Positions 8,191-36,170 of a DNA stretch of 64,000 bases are shown here, in pieces (position 1 is the stretch's first letter; each line of letters opens with the position of its first letter). Position numbers and translations under genes: made by a program. Location: NCBI GenBank assembly GCA_029964075.1, contig CM057135.1, positions 20,052,863-20,116,862 of the forward strand, read 5' to 3'. Origin of the DNA: Patiria pectinifera (taxonomy: Eukaryota > Echinodermata > Asteroidea > Valvatida > Asterinidae). The notes below the pieces were generated by a model that did no database searches, was not told the origin of the DNA, and was given only the letters and a program-made list of their open reading frames with translations.

Positions 8191-8699
8191 ACATTACATA
8201 TGTACTTGTAGTCCAAAGCAATCATACTACATACTCGCGAACCATATAAAAGCAAACAAATCATTTACCATGTTAATTTAAAAAAAAAAAAAAAGGAAAA
8301 GAGGCTACTGTATATAATATAGATATGTCATGTTGTGGCAAGATGACAGCATTTTGGCAAGGAAAAAAAAATAGATTTGCCAATATTTCAGTGCTACAAA
8401 CATTCACCACCAATTCAAATAAAATATTGCACATACAATAGTCTTCAAGACTGCAGCCTCCCGAGTCATGCATGAATTGTGACAGTATTCATCAAATATT
8501 TCCAGTGACTATGAATGCTGCTTAAGTCTGAGCAAATTAGAATAATAACGAAACATTGCAGGGCAATTACATAAAGGTTTGTTTGTTGGAATGAAATTTG
8601 CCCTGCCTTGCCTTACAACTGGCATTAACATTCAACTCTTAAATCATTCAAAAATACATTGCAATAGTGACGGCATCATTCCCTTTGGCAATTAACTTG
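8191..8699. other. No gene recognised
   Basis: AT-rich, with an A tract near 8280-8294. No supported feature. Confidence 0.5.
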
Positions 8700-12880: not shown

Positions 12881-14204
12881 TGTGTAATTGCTCTTATTGT
12901 TTCTTGTATTTGACACTTATACATGTACTGTAATTGCAGAAATTCAACTGAGGAAGTACCATTGCATTGGTGTGGTCAGAATAATTGATGTCTGTGAAAA
13001 CACATTTGTGTTTGTTTACAAACTAGCATTTAGAAAACTTATTTTTGTTTTAATTTCTTTTCATGAAGGCTGTTAACCAAATTGGCAAAAAGATACATGT
13101 AACACTGCATAAGGTGTGTTTGAAGTTGTATTAAACCCTTATGAATGTTTGATGTGGTGTATATTGGGATTTGGGAAATGGATAGGGCCAAAAAGGAAAT
13201 AATTGGTTGTATCGTCATTTAAAACAGAAGTTCAAGAAACAAATGTATACTAGATGGTTTTGAATCCAAGTTTTTACTTAAAAGTGGAATGCCTGCACAC
13301 CTTAAACAACTTTTGTAAAGTTATCTGCTACTGGAAGCTGTTCTTTTGGGGCTCTTTCTTCTGGGGAGGATCTTTGTCATTTAATTTGGAATACATAAAC
13401 TCATCCTGTTTTAGGTACCTGCCGTCTTTTTACAAATTGTTCATTCAAGAAAAACAACACTAACTGATTAAGATTTTTCCATCTGCGTTTTTCTTTTGGC
13501 TGAATGCAGTATGTCATGTACAGCACATCAAAGTTGGAATAAAAAAGTTATAGAAACAATATTTGGATCGTATTTGTTATTTATTGTTTCAAATCGTTCT
13601 TATCAAATTTAATCTAAATTTAAATCAATTTAAGTATGACACCTGCCCCATATTAATGATGATCATGCGTTTCAGCTAACTAGCAGCCATTTAGAGAAGA
13701 TTGACTGATTTACAGTTTTTGTGGGATATCATAACGAAGCAACTTGCAAGTTCTGGGGCTCATGGGTTTTACACATTTATCTTTCATAAAGGCTTGTCAT
13801 TTACAAGATATTTTATAATATAAGGAACTCCCTGGTTATTTCAAATTGAAATTAACTGTAATAAGCATCTTGCTTTAGAAATAATTACAAATAAAAAGGC
13901 TAGAATCTAACATTAAACAAATGTTCAGCAAGACGGGCGAACCCGCCTCGCGCGCGCATGCATTGCGTGTAAAATGTATATTTGCTGTGTCAAAAGAGGG
14001 CGCCATTTCTTTCTTTTTTCTCATGCACAATTCGTGGTGTTTTTGTCGTAGAATTTCTCATTCCCAAACAATTCATGGACCGGGGAACAACGTTTTTCTG
14101 ATATGGTACACCATAATCTACATATCTGGCAAGTTTTATAAAATTCGGTGAACCAGATCGCCTATCTCGAAAACTAAAGCGTTTTCGGGCTCTCGTCCCA
14201 CGGA
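12881..14204. other. No gene recognised
   Basis: AT-rich, with a possible plus-strand polyadenylation signal near 13538. The 3' untranslated region of the minus-strand gene ending at 14205 should lie in the upper part, but I could not place its polyadenylation signal. Confidence 0.4.
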
Positions 14205-16113
14205 CTATGTGCTTTCTGGTAGCCGATAGTATTCGCGGTGAATTTGAATATCATGCCCCATGAACCCGGCCAGTACATCTAATTCATTGTCCTTGAGGCA
14301 GAGAACTTGCGATAGGGTCGCAACATGCTTTCGCAACTTGGTCGATGTAACATACTCGGGATGCTCTGCTTCAGATTTTGTGGAAAAATACTTGAGAGCA
14401 TCACAACCCCTGTATGCACTTTTGCACCCTGGTCGAGCAAAGAGATGGGGGTTATGATCAAGGACCCCTACCGCTCCTCTGGCCTCAACCAACACATCAA
14501 TGCTGTCGATCATAGAACTGGTCAGTAGTATGGGAACCTTCCTTCCCCTCTTACCCCGTATCTCGACACGAGCAAGCTTAGTGCAAAGTTGCTTTTCCCA
14601 TGATGACAGACTGTTCAGAACTTCTTCATTGACCTCCTTGTGGTGGTGTTGATAGTTGTCCACTGTCATCCGTTCAACTTCGCCACTTCTCCTTCTGTTG
14701 AAAAGGACCAGCTGAACCATTATGGCTTTTGCCAATAGGCTGTAGTGCTCCTTCTGGGGATCTCGTTTCACTAACTCATTCTTCTCCTGGACCACTTCTT
14801 GAACCTTCTGGTGAACCTTCATCACATCACTAGACAGAGGTAGTATTGCTGGTTTGATCCATTTCCTTTCATAAATGGTTGTTAGAGCCCCTTTAGAGAC
14901 ATTTGATGGCCACAGAATGGAACAAAGCTCTTCAAATCCTTCTGCTTTTTCTCGAAGTACACCATCCTGACTTTTGATGGCATCAGCTTTGACAATTAGC
15001 GCAATTTCAAGGCCAGAGATGGCGTTTTGTAGTTTCCCGTCTCTTCATTTAGACCAGCTACCACATTGACCGATTTGACAACATCGTCAAAGTTCTTTGG
15101 ATGTATACAGTCACCCAAAGTTTGGATGCTTGTGTTGATCTCTCGAGCCTTGAGTAAGAGACGGCCCACTTCTCTCATCTTTTGGCTGACATGCTGGTGG
15201 AAGTTTTGAGCACGGCCAACTTTCCCCAGGGTGTGCATCCCCAGTTTGATGATTAAGTCATCATTTCTTGCAACAAGGGCTACGTCACTGTGTTGCATGT
15301 GACCAATGATTTGATTTTTCATGACATCTGAGACCTTACTTGAAATAGGCAAGAGCAAAGCACACTGAAACTTGAGTAACTTTCCACAGGGCTTTCCTTC
15401 TTCTCTCATCACACAAGACTTCTGATGCTTCCACATGTCAGAAGACATGAAGTACCCAAAACAAAGGTGGCAAGGAAGGTACAGCTCAGCTGGGGTCTCA
15501 TATGTTGGTCTCTTGTAGGGGATGAGCATCCCCTTCTTATCCTTTAGGACCTCTAGGTTATGTGCATGGTTGCCCCTGTTTCTCAGCACTTCCAGCAACT
15601 TTTTTCTCTGCCTTGACTTAACTGGAAATCCCAGGATGTGCTTCACTTCAGGCTCATCTGGATGATGCTGCTTCAGATGCCGAGGCAACTTAGGAGTTGG
15701 TTCCATGCAAAAGACACAAAAATGCTTCTTGTCCCACTTTCTACCATCACAATTGTTGGTGGTTAAGACAGTAACATTAGGTAGTGAGGTGCTTGTGATA
15801 CGGGCATCTGCAGCTGATTGCTTGTCTCCTCATCCTCAGGACTTGTCCCGCTACATGTACTTGAACCATCCTCTGACTGAACATCACCTGGCACCGGACC
15901 AATCCCCTCAGAATGACTAGTTGATGGCCTTGCTGTAATTGGTTGCTGCAATCCCTGATATGAAGGCACCCTTTGAAATGGTATGAAATATGACTCGTCT
16001 GAGTCATAATCTGATTCCAACACACATTCTGGAATATAAGTTGGGTCTTCGCAGCTATCGTCGGAGAAAAGGATCTCTTTTGTAGAGTCAGCTCCATGAA
16101 CAATCAGTGAGTC
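14205..16113 (-). CDS. Zinc-finger / tyrosine-recombinase-like terminal exon
   Basis: Starts after the acceptor CATTAG in phase 0 and ends at a stop at 14205. Domains in order: an acidic Ser/Asp-rich N-terminus (includes CEDPTYIP and ESDYDSDESYF); a C2H2-like finger (HFCVFCMEPTPKLPRHLKQH, about 15725-15660); a second Cys/His cluster (PCHLCFGYF...HQKSC, about 15480-15415); a helical region; then a recombinase-like fold. In that fold, RRRSGEVERM fits the first catalytic Arg, GKRGRKVPIL the beta-hairpin Lys, KLRKH the H/KxxR box (Lys in place of the usual His), and GFMGHD...REYYRLP the GH and nucleophilic Tyr. This resembles Crypton-type YR proteins. Exon length is 1909; two one-base losses, near 15825 and near 15000 (TTGAAATTGCG), explain why it is not a multiple of three. 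With both the frame is continuous. Either a young pseudogene or assembly errors. Confidence 0.7.
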
Positions 16114-19100
16114 CTAATGCACATATGAAATCGAGATAAAAATGGTACAAGTTTAAATGGATTAGGAAATCAGCAAGGCTCATAGGCTATGAACATTTCA
16201 AATGGTCAATTAGAAGGTTTTTTACAATACTGTGGCACCCTGGTACCTTTCAAGGGTTACTCTGAGGAGTGCAATACTGTGATACCAATCAGTGTTAATG
16301 TAATGACTTGTAGACAATGATACCTTAATCACAATGTAGGATAATGCTCACATTCATTGTGCATGGAGTCATCTCCTCACCATATTCAAAATTCAGACAT
16401 CATACATGAGAGACATTGAACTGCATCTTGATTTGCTGGGTACATGCTGATGCCATTTGTAATCTATTACTTTTTTTATTAGTAATCGTCAAAAATAACT
16501 GTTTTTTTTGCAATATTTCAATCATTACAGTCCCAAATTACTACAAATTTACTTCCCTCCAAACTGGCATATGCACAATATACAAATAGTGAATGTTCGT
16601 AATAAGTGCAATGGCAAGAATAATTTAATGAAATGACGGATGAATATTCCATCCGTCACCAAATACAATTTTTTCAAGGTTATCAGGATATTTCACGACC
16701 GTGGGAACCCTGATTTTTTTACTTACGTCATTAGAAACTTCACCAACATACATGGTACTGACAGGACCCTGGGAGGAGAAAAAAAGGAAAAAATATGCAT
16801 AATTTAATGAACAATGAACGTGCAATGAGCACATTACTGCACTGCAAAGGTCTTAAATGACAATGTGCAGAAACACACTACTACTGAGGACATCAGGTGA
16901 TTAACTACTACTGAGGACAAAAACACATTGAAGACATTATTTGCAGCTATGGCAGTGGCGGTTACACCTCTATGTTCCGACACCCCTATGTTCCGACTGC
17001 ACATATTCCTAACCCTTACCCTAACCCTAACCGGGAGTAACACAATATAGGTTGTCGGAACATAGGGGTGTCGGAACATAGAGCAGTCACCGCAGTGGCA
17101 GCTTTGGCATCCTGATAGAAAAATTAAGACAATTGTCAGTTTGCACAACAGCAGTCTTAACCCTAAAAGAACCAGGGGGGGGGGGGGAATCCCACCTCCC
17201 TATATTTTGCGTGATAGTGTGTTGCAGCTTATTTTTTTCGTGCTGAGAATTTTACAAATTTTTCCATTATTATCCAACGGTCTGCGAACAATCATCACAT
17301 TGTTCATGGAAACCATGCATCCGCAAAACATTGTGTGGAATATATATAGCATCGATCAATTTGAATGAGATTTGGAACAGTTATTCATCAATACTACCAT
17401 CATTAGCAATAATTTTATTTAAATCCGTCATTTTTTGACTGAGATCTGAGGGTTGGGGCTGTGAATAACCCTGTAAAAAAGGGCTAGATGACAACATAGA
17501 GAGATACACTACCACCGAGGACATCAGGTGAGAAACTAAGTAATGACGACAAAACATTAGAGACTTACATTATGTTCAGCTTTGGCAGTGGCAGGTTTGG
17601 AAGTGGTCACAGTGCAGGCATCCTGAATGAAAAAATAAAGACAATTGTTAGTTTGTACAACAGAGGTCTTAAATGATAACATAGAGAGATACACTACTAC
17701 CGAGTACATCAGGTGATATACTACTACAGAGGACATAAACACAGATATTAGAGACTTACGTTATGTACAGCTTCAGCAGGGGCAGCTTTGGTAATGGTCA
17801 CAGTGGAATCCTAAAAGAAAAAAGAAAAACGATTGTAAGTTTGTACAACAGAGGTCTTAAATGACAACATATAGAGATACACTACTACCGAGTACATCAG
17901 GGGATATACTACTACAGAGGACAAACACAGATATTAGAGACTTACGTTATGTACAGCTTCAGCAGGGGCAGCTTTGGTAGTGGTCACAGTGGAATCCTAA
18001 AAGAAAAAAGAAAAACGATTGTAAGTTTGTACAACAGAGGTCTTAAATGACAACATATAGAGATACACTACTACCGAGTACATCAGGGGATATACTACTA
18101 CAGAGGACAAACACAGATATTAGAGACTTACGTTATGTACAGCTTCAGCAGGGGCAGCTTTGGTAGTGGTCACAGTGGAATTCTAAAAGAAAAAAGAAAA
18201 ACGATTGTAAGTTTGTACAACAGAGGTCTTAAATGACAGCATATATATAGAGATACACTACTACCGAGGTGATATACTACTACAGAGGACACAAACACAG
18301 AGATTAAAGACTTACATTATGTACAACTTCAGCAGGAGAAGCTTTGGCAGCGGTCACAGTGGCAGCTTTGGCAGTGGTTACATTGGAATCCTAAAAGAAA
18401 ACATAAAGACAATTGTCAGTTTGTACAACAGAGGTTTTAAATGACAGCATATAGAAATACACTACTTCCGAGGACATCAGGTGATATACTACTACAGAGG
18501 ACACAAACACAGAGATTAAAGATTTACATTATGTACAGCTTCAGCAGGGGCAGCTTTGGCAGCGGTCACTGTGGCAGCTTTGGCAGTGGTAACAGTGGAA
18601 TCCTAAAAGAAAAAATACAGACAATTGTCAGTTTGTACAACAGAAGTCTTAAATAACAGAGAGAGATACACTACTACCGAGGACATCAGGTGATATACTA
18701 CTACAGAGGACACAAACACAGAGATTAGAGATTTACATTATGTACAGCTTCAGCAGGGGCAGCGGTCACAGTGGCAGCTTTGGCAGTGGTCACAGTGAAA
18801 TCCTGAAAGAAAAAATACAGACAATTGTCAGTTTGTACAACAGAGGTCTTACATGACAACGCAGAGAGACACACTACTACCGAGTACATCAGGTGATATA
18901 CTACTACAGAGGACACAAACACAGAGATTAGAGACTTACATTATGTACAGCTTCAGCAGGGGCAGCTTTGGCAGCGGTCACAGTGGCAGATTTGGCAGTG
19001 GTTACAGTGGCAGCTTTGGTAGTGGTTACAGTGGAATCCTAAAAGAAAAAATACAGACAATTGTCAGTTTGTACAACGGAGGTCTTAAATAACAGAGATA

Positions 19101-22100
19101 TACACTACTACCGAGGACATCAGGTAGGACACAAACACAGAGATGAGAGACTTACATTATGTACAGCTTCAGCAGGGGCAGCTTTGGCAGCGGTCAAAGT
19201 GGCAGCTTTGGCAGTAGTTACAGTGGAATCCTGAAAGAAAAAATACAGACAGTCAGTTTGTACAACAGAGGTCTTACATGACAACGCAGAGAGATACACT
19301 ACTACCGAGTACATCAGGTGATATACTACCACAGAGGACACAAGCACAGAGATTATATCCCAGGTCAAAATAAAATAGAGAAAAAATATATTTATTTCCT
19401 ATTAAAAATACATTTTTTTAAATCTATTTTTTTCCATTGTATTTCGACACCCCCAAAATGAGAGAAAAAATAGAATAGTGAAAAAATATCTTTTTAAAAA
19501 ATATAGGTAAAATAGGTTGCTATTTTAAATAAAATAGCATGCTATTAAAAAAAAATGTTATTTTTTAAAAATACAAAATGGCGTCCGTCCAAACAACTGT
19601 TTTATAATACTTGGACATACATGTTAATAGTACACATGTCCTTGTGGACAATAAGCATCTTTAGCAGTCCTCATACAGTACATGAAGTGAGCAAGCAATA
19701 TGACTGCATAAGAATGGAATAATTGAGAAAATACATGTATGTCTATTACCATAAACAGTAATAATGCTGTGACAACACAGTGTCCAAACAATTAACATAC
19801 ACATACATCATGCACCAACAAGTTATTAAAACAGTTTGGTTCAACATGCTACGGTTGTGCGTGCTTTTTCAGCAAAATACAGCATGAAAAGGTACAAGAA
19901 TGTTACTCATAATTGTCCTGGAAAATCTACTAACCATGTGGTGCACTATAAATAGGGGAATATAAATAGTCATAAAATAGCGTGCAGTTTTAAAAATAGA
20001 AATAAAATAGAGTGGCAACATGTATTCATTTTGATGTAATAGAAATACAATATATTTTGTTCCTATTTTCTAGGAGAAAATAGCTTAAAAATGTATTTTC
20101 AATAGGAAAAACATAGCTTCAATAGCTTCAGCAGGGGCATCTTTGGCAGTGGTCACAGTGGAATCCTAAAAGAAAAAAGAAAAACGATTGTCAGTTTGTA
20201 CAACAGAGGTTTTAAATGACAGCATATAGCAGAGGTGGCAGCAAGTCATTTTTTGCAAGTCCAAGTCAAGTCAGTTATTCATCAATACTACCATCATTAG
20301 CAATAATTTTATTTAAATTCGTCATTTTTTGACTGAGATCTGAGGGTTGGGGCTGTGAATGACCCTGTAAAAAAGGGCTAGATGACAACATAGAGAGATA
20401 CACTACCACCGAGGACATCAGGTGAGAAACTAAGTAATGACGACAAAAACATTAGAGACTTACATTATGTTCAGCTTTGGCAGTGGCAGGTTTGGAAGTG
20501 GTCACAGTGCAGGCATCCTGAATGAAAAAATAAAGACAATTGTTAGTTTGTACAACAGAGGTCTTAAATGATAACATAGAGAGATACACTACTACCGAGT
20601 ACATCAGGTGATATACTACTACAGAGGACATAAACACAGATATTAGAGACTTACGTTATGTACAGCTTCAGCAGGGGCAGCTTTGGTAATGGTCACAGTG
20701 GAATCCTAAAAGAAAAAAGAAAAACGATTGTAAGTTTGTACAACAGAGGTCTTAAATGACAACATATAGAGATACACTACTACCGAGTACATCAGGGGAT
20801 ATACTACTACAGAGGACAAACACAGATATTAGAGACTTACGTTATGTACAGCTTCAGCAGGGGCAGCTTTGGTAGTGGTCACAGTGGAATCCTAAAAGAA
20901 AAAAGAAAAACGATTGTAAGTTTGTACAACAGAGGTCTTAAATGACAGCATATATATAGAGATACACTACTACCAAGGTGATATACTACTACAGAGGACA
21001 CAAACACAGAGATTAAAGACTTACATTATGTACAACTTCAGCAGGAGAAGCTTTGGCAGCGGTCACAGTGGCAGCTTTGGCAGTGGTTACATTGGAATCC
21101 TAAAAGAAAACATAAAGACAATTGTCAGTTTGTACAACAGAGGTTTTAAATGACAGCATATAGAAATACACTACTACCGAGGACATCAGGTGATATACTA
21201 CTACAGAGGACACAAACACAGAGATTAAAGACTTACATTATGTACAGCTTCAGCAGGGGCAGCTTTGGCAGCGGTCACAGTGGCAGCTTTGGCAGTGGTA
21301 ACAGTGGAATCCTAAAAGAAAAAATACAGACAATTGTCAGTTTGTACAACAGAAGTCTTAAATAACAGAGAGAGATACACTACTACCGAGGACATCAGGT
21401 GATATACTACTACAGAGGACACAAACACAGAGATTAGAGATTTACATTATGTACAGCTTCAGCAGGGGCAGCGGTCACAGTGGCAGCTTTGGCAGTGGTC
21501 ACAGTGAAATCCTGAAAGAAAAAATACAGACAATTGTCAGTTTGTACAACAGAGGTCTTACATGACAACGCAGAGAGACACACTACTACCGAGTACATCA
21601 GGTGATATACTACTACAGAGGACACAAACACAGAGATTAGACACTTACATTATGTACAGCTTCAGCAGGGGCAGCTTTGGCAGCGGTCACAGTGGCAGCT
21701 TTGGCAGTGGTTACAGTGGCAGCTTTGGTAGTGGTTACAGTGGAATCCTAAAAGAAAAAATACAGACAATTGTCAGTTTGTACAACAGAGGTCTTAAATA
21801 ACAGAGAGATACACTACTACCGAGGACATCAGGTAGGACACAAACACAGAGATGAGAGACTTACATTATGTACAGCTTCAGCAGGGGCAGCTTTGGCAGC
21901 GGTCAAAGTGGCAGCTTTGGCAGAAGTTACAGTGGAATCCTGAAAGAAAAAATACAGACAGTCAATTTGTACAACAGAGGTCTTACATGACAACGCAGAG
22001 AGATACACTACTACCGAGTACATCAGGTGATATACTACCACAGAGGACACAAGCACAGAGATTATATCCCAGGTCAAAATAAAATAGAGAAAAAATATAT

Positions 22101-25100
22101 TTATTTCCTATTGAAAATACATTTTTTTTAAATCTATTTTTTTCCATTGTATTTCGACACCCCCAAAATTAGAGAAAAAATAGAATAGTGAAAAATATCT
22201 TTTTAAAAAATATAGGTAAAATAGGTTGCTGTTTTAAATAAAAAAGCATGCTATTAAAAAAAAATGTTATTTTTTAAAAATACAAAATGGCGTCTGTCCA
22301 AACAACTGTTTTATAATACTTGGACATACATGTTAATAGTACACATGTCCTTGTGGACAATAAGCATCTTTAGCAGTCCTCATACAGTACATGAAGTGAG
22401 CAAGCAATATGACTGCATAAGAATGGAATAATTGAGAAAATACATGTATGTCTATTACCATAAACAGTAATAATGCTGTGACAACACAGTGTCCAAACAA
22501 TTAACATACACATACATCATGCACCAACAAGTTATTAAAACAGTTTGGTTCAACATGCTACGGTTGTGCGTGCTTTTTCAGCAAAATACAGCATGAAAAG
22601 GTACAAGAATGTTACTCATAATTGTCCTGGAAAATCTACTAACCATGTGGTGCACTATAAATAGGGGAATATAAATAGTCATAAAATAGCGTGCAGTTTT
22701 AAAAATAGAAATAAAATAGAGTGGCAACATGTATTCATTTTGATGTAATAGAAATACAATATATTTTGTTCCTATTTTCTAGGAGAAAATAGCTTTAAAA
22801 TGTATTTTCAATAGGAAAAACATAGCTTCAATAGCTTCAGCAGGGGCATCTTTGGTAGTGGTCACAGTGGAATCCTAAAAGAAAAAAGAAAAACGATTGT
22901 CAGTTTGTACAACAGAGGTTTTAAATGACAGCATATAGCAGAGGTGGCAGCAAGTCATTTTTTGCAAGTACAAGTCAAGTCAGTTATTCATCAATACTAC
23001 CATCATTAGCAATAATTTTATTTAAATTCGTCATTTTTTGACTGAGATCTGAGGGTTGGGGCTGTGAATGACCCTGTAAAAAAGGGCTAGATGACAACAT
23101 AGAGAGATACACTACAACCGAGGATACAGGTGAGAAACTAAGTAATGACGACAAAAACATTAGAGACTTACATAATGTTCAGCTTTGGCAGTGGCAGGTT
23201 TGGAAGTGGTCACAGTGCAGGCATCCTGAATGAAAAAATAAAGACAATTGTTAGTTTGTACAACAGAGGTCTTAAATGATAACATAGAGAGATACACTAC
23301 TACCGAGTACATCAGGTGATATACTACTACAGAGGACATAAACACAGATATTAGAGACTTACGTTATGTACAGCTTCAGCAGGGGCAGCTTTGGTAGTGG
23401 TCACAGTGGAATCCTAAAAGAAAAAAGAAAAACGATTGTAAGTTTGTACAACAGAGGTCTTAAATGACAGCATATATATAGAGATACACTACTACCGAGG
23501 TGATATACTACTACAGAGGACACAAACACAGAGATTAAAGACTTACATTATGTACAACTTCAGCAGGAGAAGCTTTGGCAGCGGTCACAGTGGCAGCTTT
23601 GGCAGTGGTTACATTGGAATCCTAAAAGAAAACATAAAGACAATTGTCAGTTTGTACAACAGAGGTTTTAAATGACAGCATATAGAAATACACTACTACC
23701 GAGGACATCAGGTGATATACTACTACAGAGGACACAAACACAGAGATTAAAGACTTACATTATGTACAGCTTCAGCAGGGGCAGCTTTGGCAGCGGTCAC
23801 AGTGGCAGCTTTGGCAGTGGTAACAGTGGAATCCTAAAAGAAAAAATACAGACAATTGTCAGTTTGTACAACAGAGGTCTTAAATAACAGAGAGATACAC
23901 TACTACCGAGGACATCAGGTAGGACACAAACACAGAGATGAGAGACTTACATTATGTACAGCTTCAGCAGGGGCAGCTTTGGCAGCGGTCAAAGTGGCAG
24001 CTTTGGCAGTAGTTACAGTGGAATCCTGAAAGAAAAAATACAGACAGTCAGTTTGTACAACAGAGGTCTTACATGACAACGCAGAGAGATACACTACTAC
24101 CGAGTACATCAGGTGATATACTACCACAGAGGACACAAGCACAGAGATTATATCCCAGGTCAAAATAAAATAGAGAAAAAATATATTTATTTCCTATTGA
24201 AAATACATTTTTTTTAAATCTATTTTTTTCCATTGTATTTCGACACCCCCAAAATTAGAGAAAAAATAGAATAGTGAAAAAATATCTTTTTAAAAAATAT
24301 AGGTAAAATAGGTTGCTATTTTAAATAAAATAGCATGCTATTAAAAAAAAATGTTATTTTTTAAAAATACAAAATGGCGTCTGTCCAAACAACTGTTTTA
24401 TAATACTTGGACATACATGTTAATAGTACACATGTCCTTGTGGACAATAAGCATCTTTAGCAGTCCTCATACAGTACATGAAGTGAGCAAGCAATATGAC
24501 TGCATAAGAATGGAATAATTGAGAAAATACATGTATGTCTATTACCATAAACAGTAATAATGCCGTGACAACACAGTGTCCAAACAATTAACATACACAT
24601 ACATCATGCACCAACAAGTTATTAAAACAGTTTGGTTCAACATGCTACGGTTGTGCGTGCTTTTTCAGCAAAATACAGCATGAAAAGGTACAAGAATGTT
24701 ACTCATAATTGTCCTGGAAAATCTACTAACCATGTGGTGCACTATAAATAGGGAATATAAATAGTCATAAAATAGCGTGCAGTTTTAAAAATAGAAATAA
24801 AATAGAGTGGCAACATGTATTCATTTTGATGTAATAGAAATACAATATATTTTGTTCCTATTTTCTAGGAGAAAATAGCTTTAAAATGTATTTTCAATAG
24901 GAAAAACATAGCTTCAATAGCTTCAGCAGGGGCATCTTTGGTAGTGGTCACAGTGGAATCCTAAAAGAAAAAAGAAAAACGATTGTCAGTTTGTACAACA
25001 GAGGTTTTAAATGACAGCATATAGCAGAGGTGGCAGCAAGTCATTTTTTGCAAGTACAAGTCAAGTCAGTTATTCATCAATACTACCATCATTAGCAATA

Positions 25101-28100
25101 ATTTTATTTAAATTCGTCATTTTTGACTGAGATCTGAGGTTGGGGCTGTGAATGACCCTGTAAAAAGGGCTAGATGACAACATAGAGAGATACACTACAA
25201 CCGAGGATACAGGTGAGAAACTAAGTAATGACGACAAAACATTAGAGACTTACATAATGTTCAGCTTTGGCAGTGGCAGGTTTGGAAGTGGTCACAGTGC
25301 AGGCATCCTGAATGAAAAATAAAGACAATTGTTAGTTTGTACAACAGAGGTCTTAAATGATAACATAGAGAGATACACTACTACCGAGTACATCAGGTGA
25401 TATACTACTACAGAGGACATAAACACAGATATTAGAGACTTACGTTATGTACAGCTTCAGCAGGGCAGCTTTGGTAGTGGTCACAGTGGAATCCTAAAAG
25501 AAAAAGAAAAACGATTGTAAGTTTGTACAACAGAGGTCTTAAATGACAGCATATATATAGAGATACACTACTACCGAGGTGATATACTACTACAGAGGAC
25601 ACAAACACAGAGATTAAAGACTTACATTATGTACAACTTCAGCAGGAGAAGCTTTGGCAGCGGTCACAGTGGCAGCTTTGGCAGTGGTTACATTGGAATC
25701 CTAAAAGAAAACATAAAGACAATTGTCAGTTTGTACAACAGAGGTTTTAAATGACAGCATATAGAAATACACTACTACCGAGGACATCAGGTGATATACT
25801 ACTACAGAGGACACAAACACAGAGATTAAAGACTTACATTATGTACAGCTTCAGCAGGGGCAGCTTTGGCAGCGGTCACAGTGGCAGCTTTGGCAGTGGT
25901 AACAGTGGAATCCTAAAAGAAAAAATACAGACAATTGTCAGTTTGTACAACAGAGGTCTTAAATAACAGAGAGATACACTACTACCGAGGACATCAGGTA
26001 GGACACAAACACAGAGATGAGAGACTTACATTATGTACAGCTTCAGCAGGGGCAGCTTTGGCAGCGGTCAAAGTGGCAGCTTTGGCAGTAGTTACAGTGG
26101 AATCCTGAAAGAAAAAATACAGACAGTCAGTTTGTACAACAGAGGTCTTACATGACAACGCAGAGAGATACACTACTACCGAGTACATCAGGTGATATAC
26201 TACCACAGAGGACACAAGCACAGAGATTATATCCCAGGTCAAAATAAAATAGAGAAAAAATATATTTATTTCCTATTGAAAATACATTTTTTTTAAATCT
26301 ATTTTTTTCCATTGTATTTCGACACCCCCAAAATTAGAGAAAAAATAGAATAGTGAAAAAATATCTTTTTAAAAAATATAGGTAAAATAGGTTGCTATTT
26401 TAAATAAAATAGCATGCTATTAAAAAAAATGTTATTTTTTAAAAATACAAAATGGCGTCTGTCCAAACAACTGTTTTATAATACTTGGACATACATGTTA
26501 ATAGTACACATGTCCTTGTGGACAATAAGCATCTTTAGCAGTCCTCATACAGTACATGAAGTGAGCAAGCAATATGACTGCATAAGAATGGAATAATTGA
26601 GAAAATACATGTATGTCTATTACCATAAACAGTAATAATGCCGTGACAACACAGTGTCCAAACAATTAACATACACATACATCATGCACCAACAAGTTAT
26701 TAAAACAGTTTGGTTCAACATGCTACGGTTGTGCGTGCTTTTTCAGCAAAATACAGCATGAAAAGGTACAAGAATGTTACTCATAATTGTCCTGGAAAAT
26801 CTACTAACCATGTGGTGCACTATAAATAGGGGAATATAAATAGTCATAAAATAGCGTGCAGTTTTAAAAATAGAAATAAAATAGAGTGGCAACATGTATT
26901 CATTTTGATGTAATAGAAATACAATATATTTTGTTCCTATTTTCTAGGAGAAAATAGCTTTAAAATGTATTTTCAATAGGAAAAACATAGCTTCAATAGC
27001 TTCAGCAGGGGCATCTTTGGTAGTGGTCACAGTGGAATCCTAAAAGAAAAAAGAAAAACGATTGTCAGTTTGTACAACAGAGGTTTTAAATGACAGCATA
27101 TAGCAGAGGTGGCAGCAAGTCATTTTTTGCAAGTACAAGTCAAGTCAGTTATTCATCAATACTACCATCATTAGCAATAATTTTATTTAAATTCGTCATT
27201 TTTTGACTGAGATCTGAGGGTTGGGGCTGTGAATGACCCTGTAAAAAGGGCTAGATGACAACATAGAGAGATACACTACAACCGAGGATACAGGTGAGAA
27301 ACTAAGTAATGACGACAAAAACATTAGAGACTTACATAATGTTCAGCTTTGGCAGTGGCAGGTTTGGAAGTGGTCACAGTGCAGGCATCCTGAATGAAAA
27401 AATAAAGACAATTGTTAGTTTGTACAACAGAGGTCTTAAATGATAACATAGAGAGATACACTACTACCGAGTACATCAGGTGATATACTACTACAGAGGA
27501 CATAAACACAGATATTAGAGACTTACGTTATGTACAGCTTCAGCAGGGGCAGCTTTGGTAGTGGTCACAGTGGAATCCTAAAAGAAAAAGAAAAACGATT
27601 GTAAGTTTGTACAACAGAGGTCTTAAATGACAGCATATATATAGAGATACCCAACTACTGAGGTGATATACTACTACAGAGGACACAAACACAGAGATTA
27701 AAGACTTACATTATGTACAACTTCAGCAGGAGAAGCTTTGGCAGCGGTCACAGTGGCAGCTTTGGCAGTGGTTACATTGGAATCCTAAAAGAAAACATAA
27801 AGACAATTGTCAGTTTGTACAACAGAGGTTTTAAATGACAGCATATAGAAATACACTACTACCGAGGACATCAGGTGATATACTACTACAGAGGACACAA
27901 ACACAGAGATTAAAGACTTACATTATGTACAGCTTCAGCAGGGGCAGCTTTGGCAGCGGTCACAGTGGCAGCTTTGGCAGTGGTAACAGTGGAATCCTAA
28001 AAGAAAAAATACAGACAATTGTCAGTTTGTACAACAGAGGTCTTAAATAACAGAGAGATACACTACTACCGAGGACATCAGGTAGGACACAAACACAGAG

Positions 28101-31100
28101 ATGAGAGACTTACATTATGTACAGCTTCAGCAGGGGCAGCTTTGGCAGCGGTCAAAGTGGCAGCTTTGGCAGTAGTTACAGTGGAATCCTGAAAGAAAAA
28201 ATACAGACAGTCAGTTTGTACAACAGAGGTCTTACATGACAACGCAGAGAGATACACTACTACCGAGTACATCAGGTGATATACTACCACAGAGGACACA
28301 AGCACAGAGATTATATCCCAGGTCAAAATAAAATAGAGAAAAAATATATTTATTTCCTATTGAAAATACATTTTTAAATCTATTTTTTCCATTGTATTTC
28401 GACACCCCCAAAATTAGAGAAAAATAGAATAGTGAAAAAATATCTTTTTAAAAAATATAGGTAAAATAGGTTGCTATTTTAAATAAAATAGCATGCTATT
28501 AAAAAAAATGTTATTTTTTAAAAATACAAAATGGCGTCTGTCCAAACAACTGTTTTATAATACTTGGACATACATGTTAATAGTACACATGTCCTTGTGG
28601 ACAATAAGCATCTTTAGCAGTCCTCATACAGTACATGAAGTGAGCAAGCAATATGACTGCATAAGAATGGAATAATTGAGAAAATACATGTATGTCTATT
28701 ACCATAAACAGTAATAATGCCGTGACAACACAGTGTCCAAACAATTAACATACACATACATCATGCACCAACAAGTTATTAAAACAGTTTGGTTCAACAT
28801 GCTACGGTTGTGCGTGCTTTTTCAGCAAAATACAGCATGAAAAGGTACAAGAATGTTACTCATAATTGTCCTGGAAAATCTACTAACCATGTGGTGCACT
28901 ATAAATAGGGGAATATAAATAGTCATAAAATAGCGTGCAGTTTTAAAAATAGAAATAAAATAGAGTGGCAACATGTATTCATTTTGATGTAATAGAAATA
29001 CAATATATTTTGTTCCTATTTTCTAGGAGAAAATAGCTTAAAAATGTATTTTCAATAGGAAAAACATAGCTTCAATAGCTTCAGCAGGGGCATCTTTGGT
29101 AGTGGTCACAGTGGAATCCTAAAAGAAAAAAGAAAAACGATTGTCAGTTTGTACAACAGAGGTTTTAAATGACAGCATATAGCAGAGGTGGCAGCAAGTC
29201 ATTTTTTGCAAGTCCAAGTCAAGTCACAAGTGATTGTTTGCAAGTCCAAGTCAAGTCACAAGTCATTAGGTCCAGTCACAAGTCAAGTCACAAGTCATTA
29301 GGTCCAGTCACAAGTCAAGTCACAAGTCATTTGGTCTAAACACAAGTCAAGTCACAAGTATCTTTGTCCAAGAACACGTCAAGTTGCACATTATTTTGCC
29401 CAGCTGTAATAAGCTAAAAGAATTAACCTGGCGTGAACTTAAGAGCTATTTTGAACATGCCATCTTAATTCCCCTTTTTCAATGTGTTGCAATTACTATT
29501 CTTGTAGTTTATCACATATCTGTCGGATATTAGCCCTTTGTATACTTTAATAAATTTACTTTACATTGTAGAAATAAATGTTGAGATGACCATAAAAAAA
29601 AAGACTTCCTCACTCGATTACATGTAGTATACTGACACTTTATTGTTCAATTTTCATGTATACTTAACGCCTACCAATGGGTTAGGCTATCCGGTATTTT
29701 ACATGCAATTGACAAAGGCCTGCTTTCTTTTCATGAAAGGTTCCTTTCAAAGTTTGTTCAACCAATACATTAAGCAAGAGACAATTGGTCATTGAAAACT
29801 GTAGTTTGTTGTGACAGTCTTATTGAACTCTTTTTAAACTAGTGGGAACTATTCACTTTACTGGATTCAGTCACTGAGGTCTATTTTCTGGAATGAAAAA
29901 GCTAATTAAAAGTATAATAGCTTAATTAAAGTGTAGTGGGTCGCTCGAGTAGCGTCTGACTTGGGTTGGTAGCAAGTCATTTTTTGCAATCCCAAGTCAA
30001 GTCACAAGTCATTGTTTGCAAGTCCAAGTCAAGTAAAAAGTCAAAGCTGGTATTTACAAGTCAAGTCACAAGTCACAAAAATAGTGACTCGAGTCCGACT
30101 CGAGTCCAAGTCACTTGACTTGAGTCAGCAACTCTGGCATATAGAGATACACTACTACCGAGGACATCAGGTGATATACTACTACAGAGGACACAAACAC
30201 AGAGATAAGAGACTTACATTATGTACAGCTTCAGCAGGGGCAGCTTTGGCAGCGGTCACAGTGGCAGCTTTGGCAGTGGTTACAGTGGAATCCTGAAAGA
30301 AAAAATACAGACAATTGTCAGTTTGTACAACAGAGGTCTTAAATAACAGAGAGAGATACACTACTACCGAGGACATCAGGTGATATACTACTTCAGAGGA
30401 CACAAACGAAGAGATTCGAGACTTACATTATGTACAGCTTCAGCAGGAAAAATCAAGACAATTGTCAGTTTGTACAACAGAGGTCTTAAATGACAACGTA
30501 GAGAGATACACTACTACCGCATATGGAGAACTTTGCCACCCATATGTGCAGAAAACCAAAGCCCTGCATGCTCTGCGGTCACACACAACGGTGCATTGAC
30601 CCGGCGACCTGCCCAGCCCCACTGCGTTGACCGGACTATACATAAACAGCAGGTCGATCCTCAGAACAAAAGCGATGTCTGATTTGACAAGAAAAGTGCC
30701 CCTTGTTCTTCTCAACCAATCAAAACGGTTGTTACATGAATGGAAAGCTTATTGTGTTATCTTTCAGAAACCGTGAGAGGTAATTGTATGCGACCGAGTT
30801 CACACGTATGCTGTTCGAAGAAGTAAACCCGCACCCTCAAAAATCGGGGAAATGTGCCGTGACTTCCATAGGAAACGCGAAATTTTCACCGAGTTACCCG
30901 TTTTTCAATGAAAAAGTGCACATAATTATTCGCCTTTAACCATGAAGAAATTATATTCTTTTGAAAGAGGAAAACCTATATTTTATGATGCGATGCAAGG
31001 AAGTAAGTTTAACCAACATACTTTCCGCGTATTAACGAAAGTTTGCTGAGAGCGCCTAGATATGAGCCAGTCTTCCCACGTAAACAGAGCTGCACTGGTG

Positions 31101-34100
31101 GCGAGTGATCAAATGCTCCCTAGTTCTCCATATGGTACATCAGGTGATATACTACTACAGAGGACACAACCACAGAGATTAGAGACTTATATTATGTACA
31201 GCTTCAGCAGGGGCAGCTTTGGCAGCGGTCAAAGTGGCAGCTTTGGCAGTGGTCACAGTGGAATCCTGAAAGAAAACATAAAGACAATTGTCAGTTTGTA
31301 CAACAGAGGTTTTAAATGACAGCATATAGAGATACACTACTACCGAGGACATCAGGTGATATACTACTACAGAGGACACAAACACAGAGATTAAAGAATT
31401 ACATTATGTACAGCTTCAGCAGGGGCAGCTTTGGCAGCGGTCACAGGGGCAGCTTTGGCAGTGGTTACATTGGAATCCTGAAAGAAAATAAAATAAAGAC
31501 AATTGTCAGTTTGTACAACAGAGGTCTTAAATAACAACAGAGAGATACACTACTACTAGGACATCAGGTGATATACTACTACAGAGGACACAAACACAGA
31601 GATTAGAGACTTACGTTATGTACAGCTTCAGCAGGGGCAGCTTTGGCAGCGGTCACAGTGGCAGCTTTGGCAGTGGTTACATTGGAATCCTGAAAGAAAC
31701 ACATGTGAACGCAGTTGTCAAATTATTACTTAGAGGGGTGGTAAGAATTCCATATATGGACAATACTAATATCTATAGTGACTTATTACACTATAAACAT
31801 CTTTATCCCTTCAAAATTCCCTAAAGAGCCATTTTCCCCTGGATTTACCGTGAAACAAGACTTTCACTGATTTTTCAACATATTAAGGGGGATTAGGAGT
31901 CCATGAAAACCCCCTTAGGAAAGTTCTTTGTTTAGATGTCAATGAAAAACGGGTGAATTCACCTGGAATGTGGTACTGCTTTCTGTTATGTAAACAGTGT
32001 CTGTAATCCTAAATGGCAAGGGTCATTAAAAACCTTGAAAAACCCCTTACAGGATTAGTCCTATAATCCCCAGTTAAACATCCGTGATTACAGATTAATT
32101 TCACAGAAAAATGGACTATTAATGGAAATTTAAGGGATAAGATGTTCATAGTGTTATTAACCCCCAAAAAGTGATAACAAATCAAATTTAGCACTGAACA
32201 TTTTTTTAGTATTAACTTAGAAAATACTTATAAATGTTTAGACCAGTCTCATAGGGTTTGTGCACAGGGTGTCTAGTACATGCATGCAACTGGAAATTTA
32301 AAAAAAAAACGAGGAAATTCCCAACCACACAAGACTAATTTGTACATGTACAGTGTTTTTCAATTTGTAATGGCATTCATGAGAAGTAAAAAACAAGGAA
32401 ATCAGCAGATCCGTGGAAAAGTTGCATGCCTGCTAGTATTGTCCGTGTATGGAACTCTTTCCGTTCCATTGTGTACAACTGTGTAACAGGTCCCAGGATC
32501 CAAGGAGAACAAAAGACAAGTGTTATTTCACTGTCACAGCAACAAAATGAAATTGAAAGAAAGCAATTTGATAAACATGTGTTCCCCATCAGTGCTGAAG
32601 TCGAGACCATTTCAAGACCAGGCACAAGACCAGCTTGTAACAGGCACAAGTAACAGGCATAAACCATGACAAAGGAATGGTTTTGTTACAGTTCATTTGA
32701 ATAGCTTAAGACTTGGCTTAAGACTGCTGGTCTTGTGCTGGTCTCGTGATGGTCTTGCTGGTCTTGTGCTAGTCTTGACTACAAGCTACAACACTGGTTC
32801 CCATAAAAATGTGGGACTCCCAGGACAACGTACATGAACATTATCATCAAGTAACAAATTACCAAAGAGGACACAATGCTTTGTTGACTTACATTTACGC
32901 AGCTGGCCAATGAAAAAAAGATGAAACAGAATCACAACTGACTAATAACAATGAAGGCTAGTAAAAAAAAAAAGTGCTTCAATAATAGAGGGGTTTATCT
33001 AGACACATACAATATAATGAAGAAACAGCTTCATTTACCATCATATCAACTGGATGGTTTCTCCAAGGGAGGTCGTCTCCTCCATAGTCATACAGCAACT
33101 GCTCCCCTGCTTCAATTTGTCTCGTTGCAAACAATGCCAGAGCTGGTGTATTGCCAATGACCATTTTTTTCATTTTGCAGTTTGCATCCTGTCCGTCATT
33201 GACCATACGCCCCATCAGTGCTGAATGTGTTGCATCGATGCTAAAACAAAAAGCAAGGCAAATATATGAAATAACTACAGTAGTAAATGGGTTTGTTAGA
33301 TCAGATTGATGTCAATTTAATTACTTCTGTCATCTATCTGTACAGGTATGAGCTTTCATTTGGTTATGAACATGTTCGGGTCTCATTTCTTCTACCTTAT
33401 CATAACACATTTACGCTTCAGCTTATATTTATTGAAGGTTTGTCTTTCTTGACTTCTTCTGCATTATTTATTGCATTTTGCGCACAATTTAAGTGAATCG
33501 GAAATACAAATCTGAAGTCTTATTAATGCTAGAATGAAACAAAAATTTACAGCGAGCCCAGGTTTTAGAGTAAATTTTATTCCAATAGACATACCACATT
33601 GTCTTTGATGCATGTACAAAGAAATACATGTAAGTATTCCTTTCAGGGTATATACAGCTTCTCTCCTGTGGGCCTCATTTGCAGAAATTAAGTCCCCGTG
33701 ATACTGAAGCAGAAAGTCACCTTTTTCAAAGGACTCTTCAGCCAATACCCCGTTGCCTGTAACAGAAGTACATTTAAACAAGGTATCCACAACCTGATTT
33801 GTAAACTTTGTTTAAGGAACTGTTTTAGCTTTGATCTTGTTTTATGCACTGACCAATACAAATTTTGCAAAGACAGATTTGCAAATTTGTGACGTCAACA
33901 ATGGTGGACGCACTTCAAACGTATTGTTGACGTCACAAATTTCGCTAGGCTTTTGCTTTCACGTGAAGTTTGAACCGGGCTTCACAAATGTTAATGCACT
34001 TTTGCATGGTTATATACTGCCAAGAATCTCAGCTTCAAATCCAAAGCATGCTTTCTGGAACAAAAACTACTGAGGGACATTTGCAAACATTAATTTTAGT

Positions 34101-34428
34101 TTATTCTTTACAATTCACAAACTGGGATGGGTACCGTATTTTCGTGCAATGCAGTTTAAAAGATGTTCCCAACATGTTCTCACTTCTCACACAGAAATGA
34201 CATTTAATTGCCAACATTTATTTGCACATCTTTTTAAAATGATGTTGGGAGAGAGTTGTTAACTGGAGAGTAATTGAAACAAGAAAACAAGAGCAAAGAA
34301 ATGTACACGTACTTACCAATTATGCCATTGATGTATTTTGTCACAAGACCTCTCCTGTCTTGTTGAAGTTCAATGATTTTTTCTGCTTCATGGAGGGGAT
34401 TGACACGTTTTCTTTTTGATCTCAGGCT
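14205..34428 (-). CDS. SET methyltransferase - mini-exon array - tyrosine recombinase fusion gene
   Basis: Proposed single gene, read from 34428 down to 14205. Order: a basic-helix exon (34428-34317), two SET exons (33756-33595, 33240-33039), an array of tiny exons (31689-17569), a 42-nt exon (16768-16727) and a terminal zinc-finger/recombinase exon (16113-14205). The argument for one transcript is phase. The second SET exon ends in phase 0, every intact array exon is a multiple of three and open only in phase 0, the 42-nt exon is phase 0, and the terminal exon starts in phase 0. All are on one strand with canonical AG and GT borders. I infer a nuclear chromatin protein with a lysine-methyltransferase head and a DNA-binding/recombinase tail joined by a disordered linker of variable length. 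Three one-base breaks interrupt the frame (see exon entries). The initiator codon was not found. The pieces could instead be two or more genes. No transcript evidence is available here. Confidence 0.55.
16727..16768 (-). CDS. 42-nt exon between array and terminal exon
   Basis: Bounded by TTCTCCTCCCAG and GTAAGT on the minus strand. It encodes GPVSTMYVGEVSND in phase 0, matching the phase of both neighbours. It does not resemble the array mini-exons, so it is probably the constant junction to the zinc-finger exon. Confidence 0.6.
16941..17112 (-). pseudogene. Degenerate mini-exon split by a MITE
   Basis: The outer parts match an array exon in reverse (GCAGCTATGGCAGTGGC at about 16943, CAGTGGCAGCTTTGGCATC at about 17094-17112). 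The donor CTTAC is lost and a small inverted-repeat element sits in the middle. This is the lowest-coordinate member of the array and is not expected to splice. Confidence 0.6.
16970..17081. mobile_element. Small inverted-repeat element with telomere-like core
   Basis: Two exact 28-bp inverted arms (16970-16997 and 17054-17081), each containing two copies of TATGTTCCGAC. The loop includes CCTAACCC then CCTAACCCTAACC (about 17008-17033), a run of the animal telomere motif. It interrupts a mini-exon. Confidence 0.75.
17569..19230 (-). CDS. Mini-exon cluster, copy 1 (nine exons)
   Basis: Exons on the minus strand at 19230-19156 (75 nt), 19038-18940 (99), 18802-18737 (66), 18602-18528 (75), 18390-18316 (75), 18182-18132 (51), 17996-17946 (51), 17810-17760 (51) and 17622-17569 (54). 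Each is preceded by a pyrimidine-rich TTTCTTTTAG or TTTCAG and followed by GTAAGT or GTAAAT. All are multiples of three and encode variants of DSTVTTTKAAPAEAVHN; longer ones add eight-residue TVTxAKAA blocks. The other two frames of the 51-nt exon contain stops, which supports coding in phase 0. The last exon is divergent (DACTVTTSKPATAKAEHN). No signal or membrane segment; the product would be an unstructured Thr/Ala/Lys linker. Confidence 0.65.
19354..20122. mobile_element. AT-rich foldback element, present in all five copies
   Basis: About 770 bp, very AT-rich, with inverted ends TTTCCTATTAAAAATACAT (from about 19396) and, reversed, TTTCCTATTGAAAATACAT (ending about 20110). It replaces the donor side of a mini-exon, leaving a truncated exon (about 20123-20164) with an acceptor but no donor. 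The same insertion occurs at about 22064-22832, 24151-24918, 26230-26998 and 28313-29077, so it was in the ancestral unit before segmental duplication. No transposase frame. Confidence 0.65.
20464..21939 (-). CDS. Mini-exon cluster, copy 2 (eight exons)
   Basis: Exons at 21939-21865 (75 nt), 21747-21649 (99), 21511-21446 (66), 21311-21237 (75), 21099-21025 (75), 20891-20841 (51), 20705-20655 (51) and 20517-20464 (54). Same order as copy 1 minus one 51-nt exon. Splice borders and phase 0 are preserved throughout. A truncated exon without donor ends at 22874 beyond the AT-rich insertion. Confidence 0.65.
23172..24025 (-). CDS. Mini-exon cluster, copy 3 (five exons)
   Basis: Exons at 24025-23951 (75 nt), 23833-23759 (75), 23621-23547 (75), 23413-23363 (51) and 23225-23172 (54). 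The 66- and 99-nt exons of copies 1 and 2 are absent. All are in phase with intact borders. The last exon ends in EHY rather than EHN. A truncated exon ends at 24960. Confidence 0.65.
25254..26104 (-). CDS. Mini-exon cluster, copy 4 (five exons, one with a 1-nt deletion)
   Basis: Exons at 26104-26030 (75 nt), 25912-25838 (75), 25700-25626 (75), 25493-25444 (50) and 25307-25254 (54). The 50-nt exon has GGG where copies 3 and 5 have GGGG. Between about 25120 and 25510 several other homopolymers are also one base shorter than in the sister copies (for example in TTTTTTGAC, GAGGGTTGG, TAAAAAAGGG, GAAAAAATAAAG). This clustering looks like a patch of assembly indel error rather than selection. A truncated exon ends at 27039. 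Confidence 0.6.
27336..28188 (-). CDS. Mini-exon cluster, copy 5 (five exons)
   Basis: Exons at 28188-28114 (75 nt), 27996-27922 (75), 27784-27710 (75), 27577-27527 (51) and 27389-27336 (54). Nearly identical to copy 3. A truncated exon ending at 29118 precedes the intact hAT-like element. Confidence 0.65.
29183..30136. mobile_element. Non-autonomous hAT-like element, CAAGTC-rich
   Basis: A 954-bp element flanked by an exact 8-bp target duplication, GCATATAG (29175-29182 and 30137-30144). Ends are CAGAGGTGGCAGCAAGTC and, reversed, CAGAGTTGCTGACTCAAGTC. An 8-bp duplication with CAG-starting termini is typical of hAT transposons. Both subterminal regions are built from CAAGTC/ACAAGTCA repeats; the middle (about 29400-29930) is unique AT-rich sequence with no transposase frame. 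It sits in an intron of the array. Confidence 0.8.
30218..31689 (-). CDS. Distal mini-exon cluster (first in transcription order)
   Basis: Intact exons at 31689-31615, 31477-31403 and 30292-30218, each 75 nt in phase 0. The exon at 31265-31191 is intact inside, but its donor reads AT instead of GT (CTTAT on the plus strand), so it is probably skipped. The exon starting at 30427 is truncated by a deletion that removes its 5' part and acceptor. The first array acceptor after the SET exons is TGTGTTTCTTTCAG at 31690. Confidence 0.6.
30520..31134. mobile_element. MITE-like element with CATATGGAGAACT ends
   Basis: A 615-bp insertion with exact 13-bp terminal inverted repeats (30520-30532 and 31122-31134). 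It splits intron sequence that is otherwise continuous in sister copies (CTACTACCG before, GTACATCAGG after). No transposase domain in the frame at 30440-30715. Confidence 0.65.
31690..33038 (-). other. Intron between SET exons and the array
   Basis: No intact exon is seen. At 32888-32903 a GTAAGT donor follows only 10 nt after an AG; the flanking TTGTGTCCTCTTTGG resembles the array intron, so this is a decayed mini-exon remnant. Short CTGGTCTTGTG repeats lie at about 32725-32775, with complements at 32605-32640. Confidence 0.45.
33039..34428 (-). CDS. SET domain exons, KMT5A-like
   Basis: Exon A, 34428-34317, is Lys/Arg-rich and ends ...KYINGIIG. Exon B, 33756-33595, continues NGVLAEESFEKGDFLLQYHG and carries the SET N-terminal half. 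Exon C, 33240-33039, runs from IDATHSALMGRMVNDGQ to the hallmark EQLLYDYGGDDLPW. This order (GxG turn, EKGDFL.QYHGDLI, CIDAT, GEQLLYDYG) matches the H4K20 methyltransferase KMT5A/SETD8. The Tyr of LYDYG is kept. The usual NHS of the pseudoknot motif is NDG here, with a Cys just after (ANCKMKK). Exon B is 162 nt where phase needs 163; the slip sits in CTGAAAGGAATAC, where one more G restores TYMYFF. Splice sites are canonical: CTGTTACAG and TTTGTTTTAG acceptors, GTAAGT, GTATGT and GTAAAT donors. The protein start upstream of exon A was not identified. Confidence 0.75.
33883..33942. promoter_or_regulatory. Exact inverted repeat carrying two CRE sites
   Basis: A 20-bp arm (33883-33902, AAATTTGTGACGTCAACAAT) is repeated exactly in reverse at 33923-33942, separated by 20 bp. 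Each arm contains TGACGTCA, the palindromic CREB/ATF site (33890-33897 and 33928-33935). It lies in the intron between the first two SET-region exons. Regulatory use is inference. Confidence 0.5.
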
Positions 34429-35332: not shown

Positions 35333-36170
35333 CAACATTCAAACAGAACATCGAAGACTAAAACATGACATTTTTCGATGATTTTGGTGGCGATTCTCGA
35401 GAAACCATGAGAAAACGTCGCGCGACAATATTCTGCCGACTGCCGTTGACCAAAAAAAAAAACACATTGGCAAATAAAAACATCAAATTTACCTCAAAAC
35501 AGCCTCCAAATTACTAGATACGCCACCTGAGGTAAAAGGAGAGATCGATGATTAAAATCGAGGCACTAAAGTTTGCTTACGAGTCGGATGAAAAGTGAAA
35601 TTTCCCGTTCAATTTCGAGAGCTCCCCTCGCGAGTTGGAGTTGGGAACTATAGAACTATCAGCGGAAACCAGTTAAAGCTAGTTCCCGACTCCGTATCAT
35701 CGTTCGAAATGCACTTGTACAAACGGGATCCAGTCTACTCATTATCAATATCAATGCATCGCGCTCGTTAACGAAATCGCGCTGAGACCACTGAATGAAC
35801 GCTGGGCACATACGGTTACATCGCGTTGTTCAAACACGAGTCAGAAATTTAACGTGTTCACGATCGATCGCGAGGGGAGCTCTCGGAATTGAACGGGAAA
35901 TTTCACTTTTTATCCGACTCATAAGCAAATTTCATTACCTCGATTTTAATCATCGATCTCTCCTTGTACCTCAGGTGGCGTATCTAGTCATTTGGAGGCT
36001 GTTTTGAGGTAAATCTGATGTTTTTATTTGCCAATGTTGTGTTTTCTTTGGTCAACGGCAGTCGGCAGAATAGTGTTGCGCGACGTCTTCTCATGGTTTC
36101 TCGAGAATCGCCACCAAAATCATCGAAAATTTTCATATTTTAGTCTTCGATCATGTTCTGTTTGAAGTCG
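35333..36170. mobile_element. Large inverted-repeat element (~0.84 kb)
   Basis: The segment about 35336-35640 is repeated in reverse at about 35865-36165. Matching landmarks include GGCGATTCTCGAGAAACCAT, GCCTCCAAATTACTAGATAC and GAGCTCCCCTCGCG. The arms of roughly 270-300 bp differ by scattered substitutions, and the spacer is about 225 bp. No transposase frame; typical of a foldback or non-autonomous DNA element. Confidence 0.75.

Follow-up and report, generated by a model that had tools for sequence, protein, structure and literature searches.

A decayed copy of a dispersed SET, repeat-linker, zinc-finger and recombinase-like family in Patiria pectinifera

The window considered here, a stretch of 64,000 nucleotides from Patiria pectinifera (C7:20052863-20116862, on a contig of 44.85 Mb within a host assembly of 613.5 Mb), carries a decayed copy of a family that joins SET, zinc-finger (ZF) and tyrosine-recombinase-like (YR) regions. 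It is probable that this copy belongs to a dispersed family in which a KMT5A-type SET domain, a repeat linker, two zinc-finger patterns and a YR follow one another, and that at least one subfamily bears the marks of a mobile DNA element. The most economical account takes the family for a Crypton-like DNA element whose YR protein includes both a KMT5A-type SET domain and an expandable linker. With less assurance, we lean towards a broader statement, namely that these copies represent a class of animal DNA transposon that has a histone-methyltransferase-type domain and a YR in one polypeptide, the linker being rebuilt in each lineage from a different in-frame repeat. One lineage would then have switched to repeating whole exons, giving rise to dozens of phase-0 mini-exons.

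Organization of the window copy

All parts of the window copy lie on the minus strand, in the order that a preliminary description had proposed: the SET exons, about 34 intact mini-exons, a 42-nt exon and a ZF/YR exon. The phase 0 that it assigned to the junctions after the SET domain is likewise recovered, at the end of SET exon C, in the mini-exons, in the 42-nt exon and in the last exon. SET exon A (34317..34428; SLRSKRKRVNPLHEAEKII...) starts in phase 0 and ends in phase 1. It requires an additional start exon upstream, for which an ATG directly followed by gtaaga near 36718 is a candidate, by eye. Between the SET exons and this possible first exon lies an inverted repeat (35338-35633 and 35868-36166; ~299 bases, 92% identical) that looks like a small foldback element. 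SET exon B (33595..33756) encodes the first half of the SET domain; its two halves are in different frames, with the break at ~33645-33625, and relatives on C7 match positions 1-55 of the query in one frame. SET exon C (33039..33240) encodes the second half, up to ...LLYDYGGDDLPWRNHPVDMM, and ends in phase 0. Joined, and with an X standing for the frame break, the exon pieces give a Pfam SET match of 1.2e-16 and have KMT5A/SETD8 as their best PDB match (5.2e-28, 101 bits, compared with 58 bits for the next SET protein). By this comparison, which extends to solved structures only, the SET sequence is classed as KMT5A-type, with KMT5A/SETD8 as its apparent closest relative.

An array of 36 mini-exons follows (17569..31689), coding for [DSTVTTAKAATVTAAKAAPAEAVHN]n, and 34 of them are intact. 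They measure 51, 54, 66, 75 or 99 nt, with one of 50 nt, and are organized in higher-order repeats of 2.1-2.7 kb. All 36 have an AG acceptor and are free of stops, 35 have a GT donor, and 35 are divisible by 3 in length; the 34 that are fully intact add up to 769 amino acids. A fuzzy search of the window for the two splice-site cores of the array gave 13 and 19 occurrences, all on the minus strand, with none for either core on the plus strand. Five further mini-exon units are without a donor, removed in each case by what was judged by eye to be an AT-rich insert (28320..29080 and, for the remaining ones, near 27.0, 24.9, 22.8 and 20.1 kb, all on the minus strand, with edges set by eye). Another, at 30447, is missing its acceptor, and the last unit (16932..17111, minus strand) is broken by an insert and split at 17111. 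The array cannot be put down to chance, given the 34 intact mini-exons among 36 and the presence of the unit at two other places. The unit resembles the stretch before the 42-nt exon (score 119 versus 41 for a shuffle); homology to the intron after SET exon C was rejected, at a score of 38 against a shuffle maximum of 55.

The 42-nt exon (16727..16768; GPVSTMYVGEVSND) is in phase 0 with canonical sites. Read on the minus strand from 16768 to 16727, it contains an in-frame ATG, surrounded by the sequence ACCATGT, which might serve as a second start and yield a recombinase devoid of the SET part. The last exon (14205..16113), also in phase 0 and with a canonical site, encodes an acidic leader, two C2H2/C2HC-like finger patterns and a tyrosine-recombinase-like region ending in GHDIQIHREYYRLPEST. 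Its frame changes twice, at ~15830-15765 and ~15044-14996. Directly behind the recombinase frame, an unrelated high-copy element of ~3 kb is inserted (11157..14207, minus strand), with at least 36 further long matches, spread over 18 contigs and for the most part 95-98% identical; this count is a lower bound drawn from the 38 of 3115 candidates that were scored. Because SET exon B breaks once and the last exon twice, no single reading frame leads from SET to YR in the window, and with these three breaks and the 3' insertion the copy as assembled is unable to make the full fusion. The preliminary description had overlooked both the breaks and the insertion.

The window has further features elsewhere. 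An open frame at 51385-52059 shows a PHD-like cysteine/histidine pattern, by eye. Helicase pieces occupy 52547-54911, with a Pfam Helicase_C match (8.1e-15) in 52954-53949, and look RecQ-like by eye. Two arrays, at 56559-57378 and 57920-58471, have a common 21-base unit (TCGTGCCTGTGAGCAG...) and are open in several frames.

Family copies, their linkers and the SET domain

The genome contains at least 133 matches to the ZF half of the recombinase exon and at least 96 to the SET query, and merging these lower-bound sets gives 108 ZF loci and 71 SET loci. Among the matches listed, a SET match lies upstream on the same strand within 12 kb at 41 of the 108 ZF loci, while each of the three other arrangements (upstream opposite, downstream same, downstream opposite) is found at 0/108. 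When the distance is extended to 40 kb, the corresponding numbers for the 108 listed loci are 56 upstream on the same strand, 0 upstream opposite, 7 downstream on the same strand and 4 downstream opposite. No SET match is found within 12 kb upstream of 67/108 listed ZF loci, nor a ZF match within 12 kb downstream of 30/71 listed SET loci. The family is concentrated on C7, where 59 of the 108 merged ZF loci listed are found; as a control, the unrelated element of the window has 3 of 36 copies there, among the matches listed. Low recombination, sex linkage of the region or local duplication may lie behind this excess.

Twenty loci, picked mainly from the best ZF matches, were fetched, and a SET match falls within the fetched stretch in 14. 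At three of the 20 (L032, L034 and L039) the second half of SET, the ZF region and the start of the YR share one open frame, and Pfam SET is detected in each. The whole frames measure 1359, 1117 and 1310 residues, respectively; judged by length, those of L032 and L034 can accommodate a whole YR and that of L039 can not. A pair of matches on C21 (37244163 and 37245642) has frames of equal length, 1113 residues. Open frames are retained in many family copies. The preliminary description had envisaged one gene fusing SET to the recombinase. This is supported at the level of the family, by the 41 loci in one arrangement against none in the other three, by the three single-frame loci and by the position of the mini-exon unit, behind SET exons wherever it was located, and fails for the window copy on account of its three frame breaks. 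Viral contigs yielded no relatives, nor did phages for the YR half.

The notion of an expandable linker, also put forward at the outset, gains support from the in-frame tandem repeats found between SET and ZF. The best-scoring array in this interval has a period divisible by 3 in 14/14 fetched SET-bearing loci, which sort into about eight groups; L020 and L023 also hold lower-scoring arrays of 145 or 92 bases, not divisible by 3. At eight loci (L027, L032 and L034-L039) no stop interrupts the ZF frame of the array within the stretch tested, which began behind a stop inside the array for L036 and at the open-frame start for L038. The units of these arrays are 11 to 56 residues long and look unrelated between groups. 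L031 and the shown part of L023 have one stop-free frame, and the best frame of L020 contains two stops. Among the six loci with no SET match in the fetched stretch, L035 and L038 likewise carry in-frame arrays. L021, L022 and L024, which show no SET match in the stretch, have units of ~0.9 kb. Only a 4-base repeat was seen in the fetched part of L033, the sister of the window copy. One candidate kind of mini-exon, seen twice in the 0.9-kb linker units of the subfamily termed D, was not accepted. Subfamily D has, in addition, a second short repeat, LTDEVVLDDEVPLTDGVLCDKAG, in frame after the recombinase at the C-terminus (L050:3-620).

The mini-exon unit was located at three places, all on C7: the window, 18.5088-18.5103 Mb and 6.6001-6.6013 Mb. 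At the latter two it follows SET exons of the same strand, 1.3 kb and 18 kb downstream, respectively. A genome search with the ZF half as query found no match near the SET exons and array at 6.6 Mb. The sister array at C7:18.5 Mb has eight units, seven of them intact, and its recombinase is also broken. Most groups examined expand repeats within an exon; in the window lineage the repeated unit comprises an exon together with an intron. Since the repeats differ from group to group at one position while the period keeps the frame, selection appears to act on the length and flexibility of the linker and not on its sequence. In the mini-exon form of the window, a similar pressure may act on exon number.

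The mini-exons are predicted to be spliced into the message. It is quite possible, though less likely, that the array is instead an intronic satellite left out of the protein, its open frame having been inherited from a single ancestral exon. The 16 distinct intact mini-exons have a pN/pS of 1.06 and therefore give no sign of amino-acid selection. Over 630 pairs, the mean difference between exons (0.117) falls between the values for intron ends upstream (0.159) and downstream (0.085), as a satellite would have it. Divisibility by 3 says little on its own because it also holds for three of the six distinct intron lengths (117, 132 and 135; not 133, 136 and 137), and a 24-nt unit within the mini-exons accounts for most exon lengths. 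Against this stand the divisibility by 3 of five of the six distinct exon lengths, the retention of both splice sites and frame in 34/36 exons, the intactness of 7/8 units in the sister array and the occurrence of coding repeats with an open frame at the equivalent place in other subfamilies.

The SET part of the family may act as a lysine methyltransferase. In KMT5A an NH pair forms part of the cofactor site; the window SET has ND in its place. Inspection of 14 copies by eye gave NH in five (four of one group), ND in six and NQ in two, the pair not being covered in the remaining one. These replacements would suit a catalytically dead SET part, serving as a nucleosome-binding or dimerizing module with no methyltransferase activity, which we regard as a serious competitor that falls somewhat short of the active enzyme. 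What speaks for activity is the C-terminal tyrosine motif (YDYG, YNYG, CNYG or YDYQ), found in all 14 copies inspected, together with the five copies in which NH is kept.

The recombinase region and dispersal of the family

The catalytic residues of tyrosine recombinases are expected in the order R, K, R, H, Y. In an alignment of ten copies (A2), seven of which cover the whole stretch, the surroundings of N-x-x-R-x-x-E, GK-x-x-R-x-V, LRKH and GHD...H-x-x-YY/FY are conserved (the last part in 7/10 rows), and these motifs stand in that order. The last region is likely, rather than proven, to be a tyrosine recombinase, and it would be expected to adopt the corresponding fold. Pfam Phage_integrase (PF00589) is matched by one of ten members (3.1e-4, residues 117-272), below the curated cut-off. 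A four-part pattern, written after the sequence had been viewed, is present in 4 of 20,000 shuffles. A five-residue pattern that includes box I is not matched by the window copy; in its strict form it recovers one of 11 phage recombinases. The YR of the window copy has no recombinase match in Pfam, NCBIfam or PDB, and a PDB search with the family profile found none either. Compared with the 11 phage recombinases, the family profile gives a probability of 3.5%, with colinear aligned residues. The phage-recombinase profile gives 0.6% with the window YR (a single sequence); this was not used as proof because some of 60 shuffles score higher. Structure prediction of the window YR gave a pLDDT of 31.8 and was not used.

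Substitution patterns in the ZF-YR region indicate some constraint on the protein. The pN/pS values are 0.19, 0.22 and 0.35 in group C, calculated from five to nine synonymous changes, and 0.30 when group A is compared with group E, synonymous sites then being near saturation. Within groups A, D and E they are 0.55-0.83, each of these groups having one to three synonymous changes; the five changes in group B all alter an amino acid.

Copies that are 94-99% identical sit on different chromosomes, and copies may still be expressed and mobile today. The transposon protein that the preliminary description had thought possible gains support from subfamily D. Its copies on C3, C14 and C20 begin at a common point ~3.3 kb ahead of SET exon B, and their flanks are unrelated; at this 5' edge, the C3-C20 alignment extends seven bases past the other two. 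At the 3' side, the C3-C20 alignment ends abruptly at least 7 kb past the YR, an edge that rests on this one pair because the C14 copy was read less far. The flanks at the edges differ, by eye. If both edges belong to one element, by our own reckoning its length would be 49.4 kb for the C3 copy and 23.8 kb for the C20 copy, a difference that lies mostly between SET and ZF (35.4 kb on C3, 9.2 kb on C14 and 12.2 kb on C20). BLAST detected neither inverted nor direct terminal repeats at these edges; the best local matches are of 10 and 13 bases, with no shuffle control. The outer parts of subfamily D contain no further recognized gene.

In pair A, 10.8 kb are shared. In one copy SET exon B is truncated by the left edge, which leaves just the right edge as a possible end, and the pair was rejected as proof of element ends. 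Positions 8000-10493 of the window, beyond the recombinase, match C7:18548866-18551295 at 95%, adjoining the sister copy; the two therefore share DNA beyond the gene, which fits a larger-block duplication and a long element equally well.

An unlikely alternative makes of these copies a host gene family and not a transposon. An ancient SET-YR fusion, that is a domesticated recombinase, would have increased in number through tandem and segmental duplication, to a large extent within one chromosome, and would serve the host as a chromatin-bound DNA-binding regulator. Such an origin would account for the excess on C7 (59/108 merged ZF loci against 3/36 copies of the unrelated element, among the matches listed), for the homologous blocks of at least 10 kb in pairs A and C, for the DNA that the window and its sister have in common beyond the gene, and for the many copies that keep open frames. 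It is at odds with subfamily D, whose copies on three chromosomes have one 5' end and unrelated flanks. The recombinase motif residues are, moreover, retained, while the human domesticated Crypton genes have lost the catalytic site, according to PMC3212892. Least probable by far is a pair of independent neighbours, a SET gene, whether or not it includes the mini-exons, and a recombinase gene starting at the ATG of the 42-nt exon: the window frame is indeed broken on both sides of that in-frame ATG and 67/108 merged ZF loci listed lack any SET match in the 12 kb upstream, but SET, ZF and the start of the YR share a single open frame in three loci, the orientation bias is 41 to 0 among the merged ZF loci listed, and an array lies between SET and ZF in 14/14 fetched SET-bearing loci.

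Relation to known systems and possible role

Cryptons are not known to have terminal inverted repeats or target-site duplication, and an element of this kind would excise as a circle and recombine at a short core. The present family would resemble them (CryptonA) and their domesticated DUF3504 relatives (KCTD1, KIAA1958, ZMYM2-4, QRICH1 and WOC) as a probable animal YR DNA element; terminal repeats were not found at the subfamily D edges, nor a reverse transcriptase in the frames scanned. The domesticated relatives are likewise fused to other domains. It differs from Cryptons by its SET head, its two finger patterns, its expandable linker and the lack of a DUF3504 match. Three CryptonA YRs match DUF3504 at E <= 8e-12, as stated in PMC3212892. 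No Pfam match to DUF3504 was found in the ten members scanned, the presence of the model in the Pfam copy being assumed, and for this reason the family is not to be filed as CryptonA. DIRS/Ngaro retrotransposons have a reverse transcriptase with RNase H; Pfam reverse transcriptase was found neither in five long ZF/YR frames (three with SET) nor in seven further subfamily D frames.

SETMAR, a single primate host gene, combines SET with the Hsmar1 mariner transposase (DDE). The family is like it in joining SET to a DNA enzyme of mobile elements, and differs in being multicopy and in having a tyrosine recombinase. KMT5A (SETD8, PR-Set7), the best PDB match of the SET part at 101 bits, is a stand-alone enzyme; unlike it, the family is multicopy and fused, and its NH pair is often changed. 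The nearest precedent found is in Symbiodinium, where, according to PMC5890265, the retrotransposons SymbioDIRS-Dnmt3 and SymbioLINE-Dnmt have captured a cytosine methyltransferase. These elements have, like the family, taken in an epigenetic methyltransferase, and the DIRS kind also encodes a tyrosine recombinase (PMC5890265). In them, however, a DNA cytosine methyltransferase is in frame with reverse transcriptase and the recombinase frame is separate (PMC5890265), whereas in some copies of the family a histone-type SET and the recombinase share one frame, and no reverse transcriptase was found in the frames scanned. No paper on a SET-YR fusion was among the matches listed in full-text literature, a scope mostly outside subscription journals.

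On the reading of the family as a Crypton-like element, the fingers and the recombinase region would bind the element ends and target DNA and would cut and join them. The SET part would dock on nucleosomes, or would methylate a lysine of histone H4 or of its own protein, with the effect that a new copy might land or stay in permissive chromatin. The low-complexity linker may act as a flexible tether, its length changing by unequal exchange while the frame is kept open.

Mobile elements are usually viewed as targets of chromatin silencing. If the present reading is true, an element that brings an H4K20-type methyltransferase head to the site of recombination would offer a direct way into the question of how mobile elements shape or escape chromatin, and open family copies exist in which such a chromatin role can be tested.
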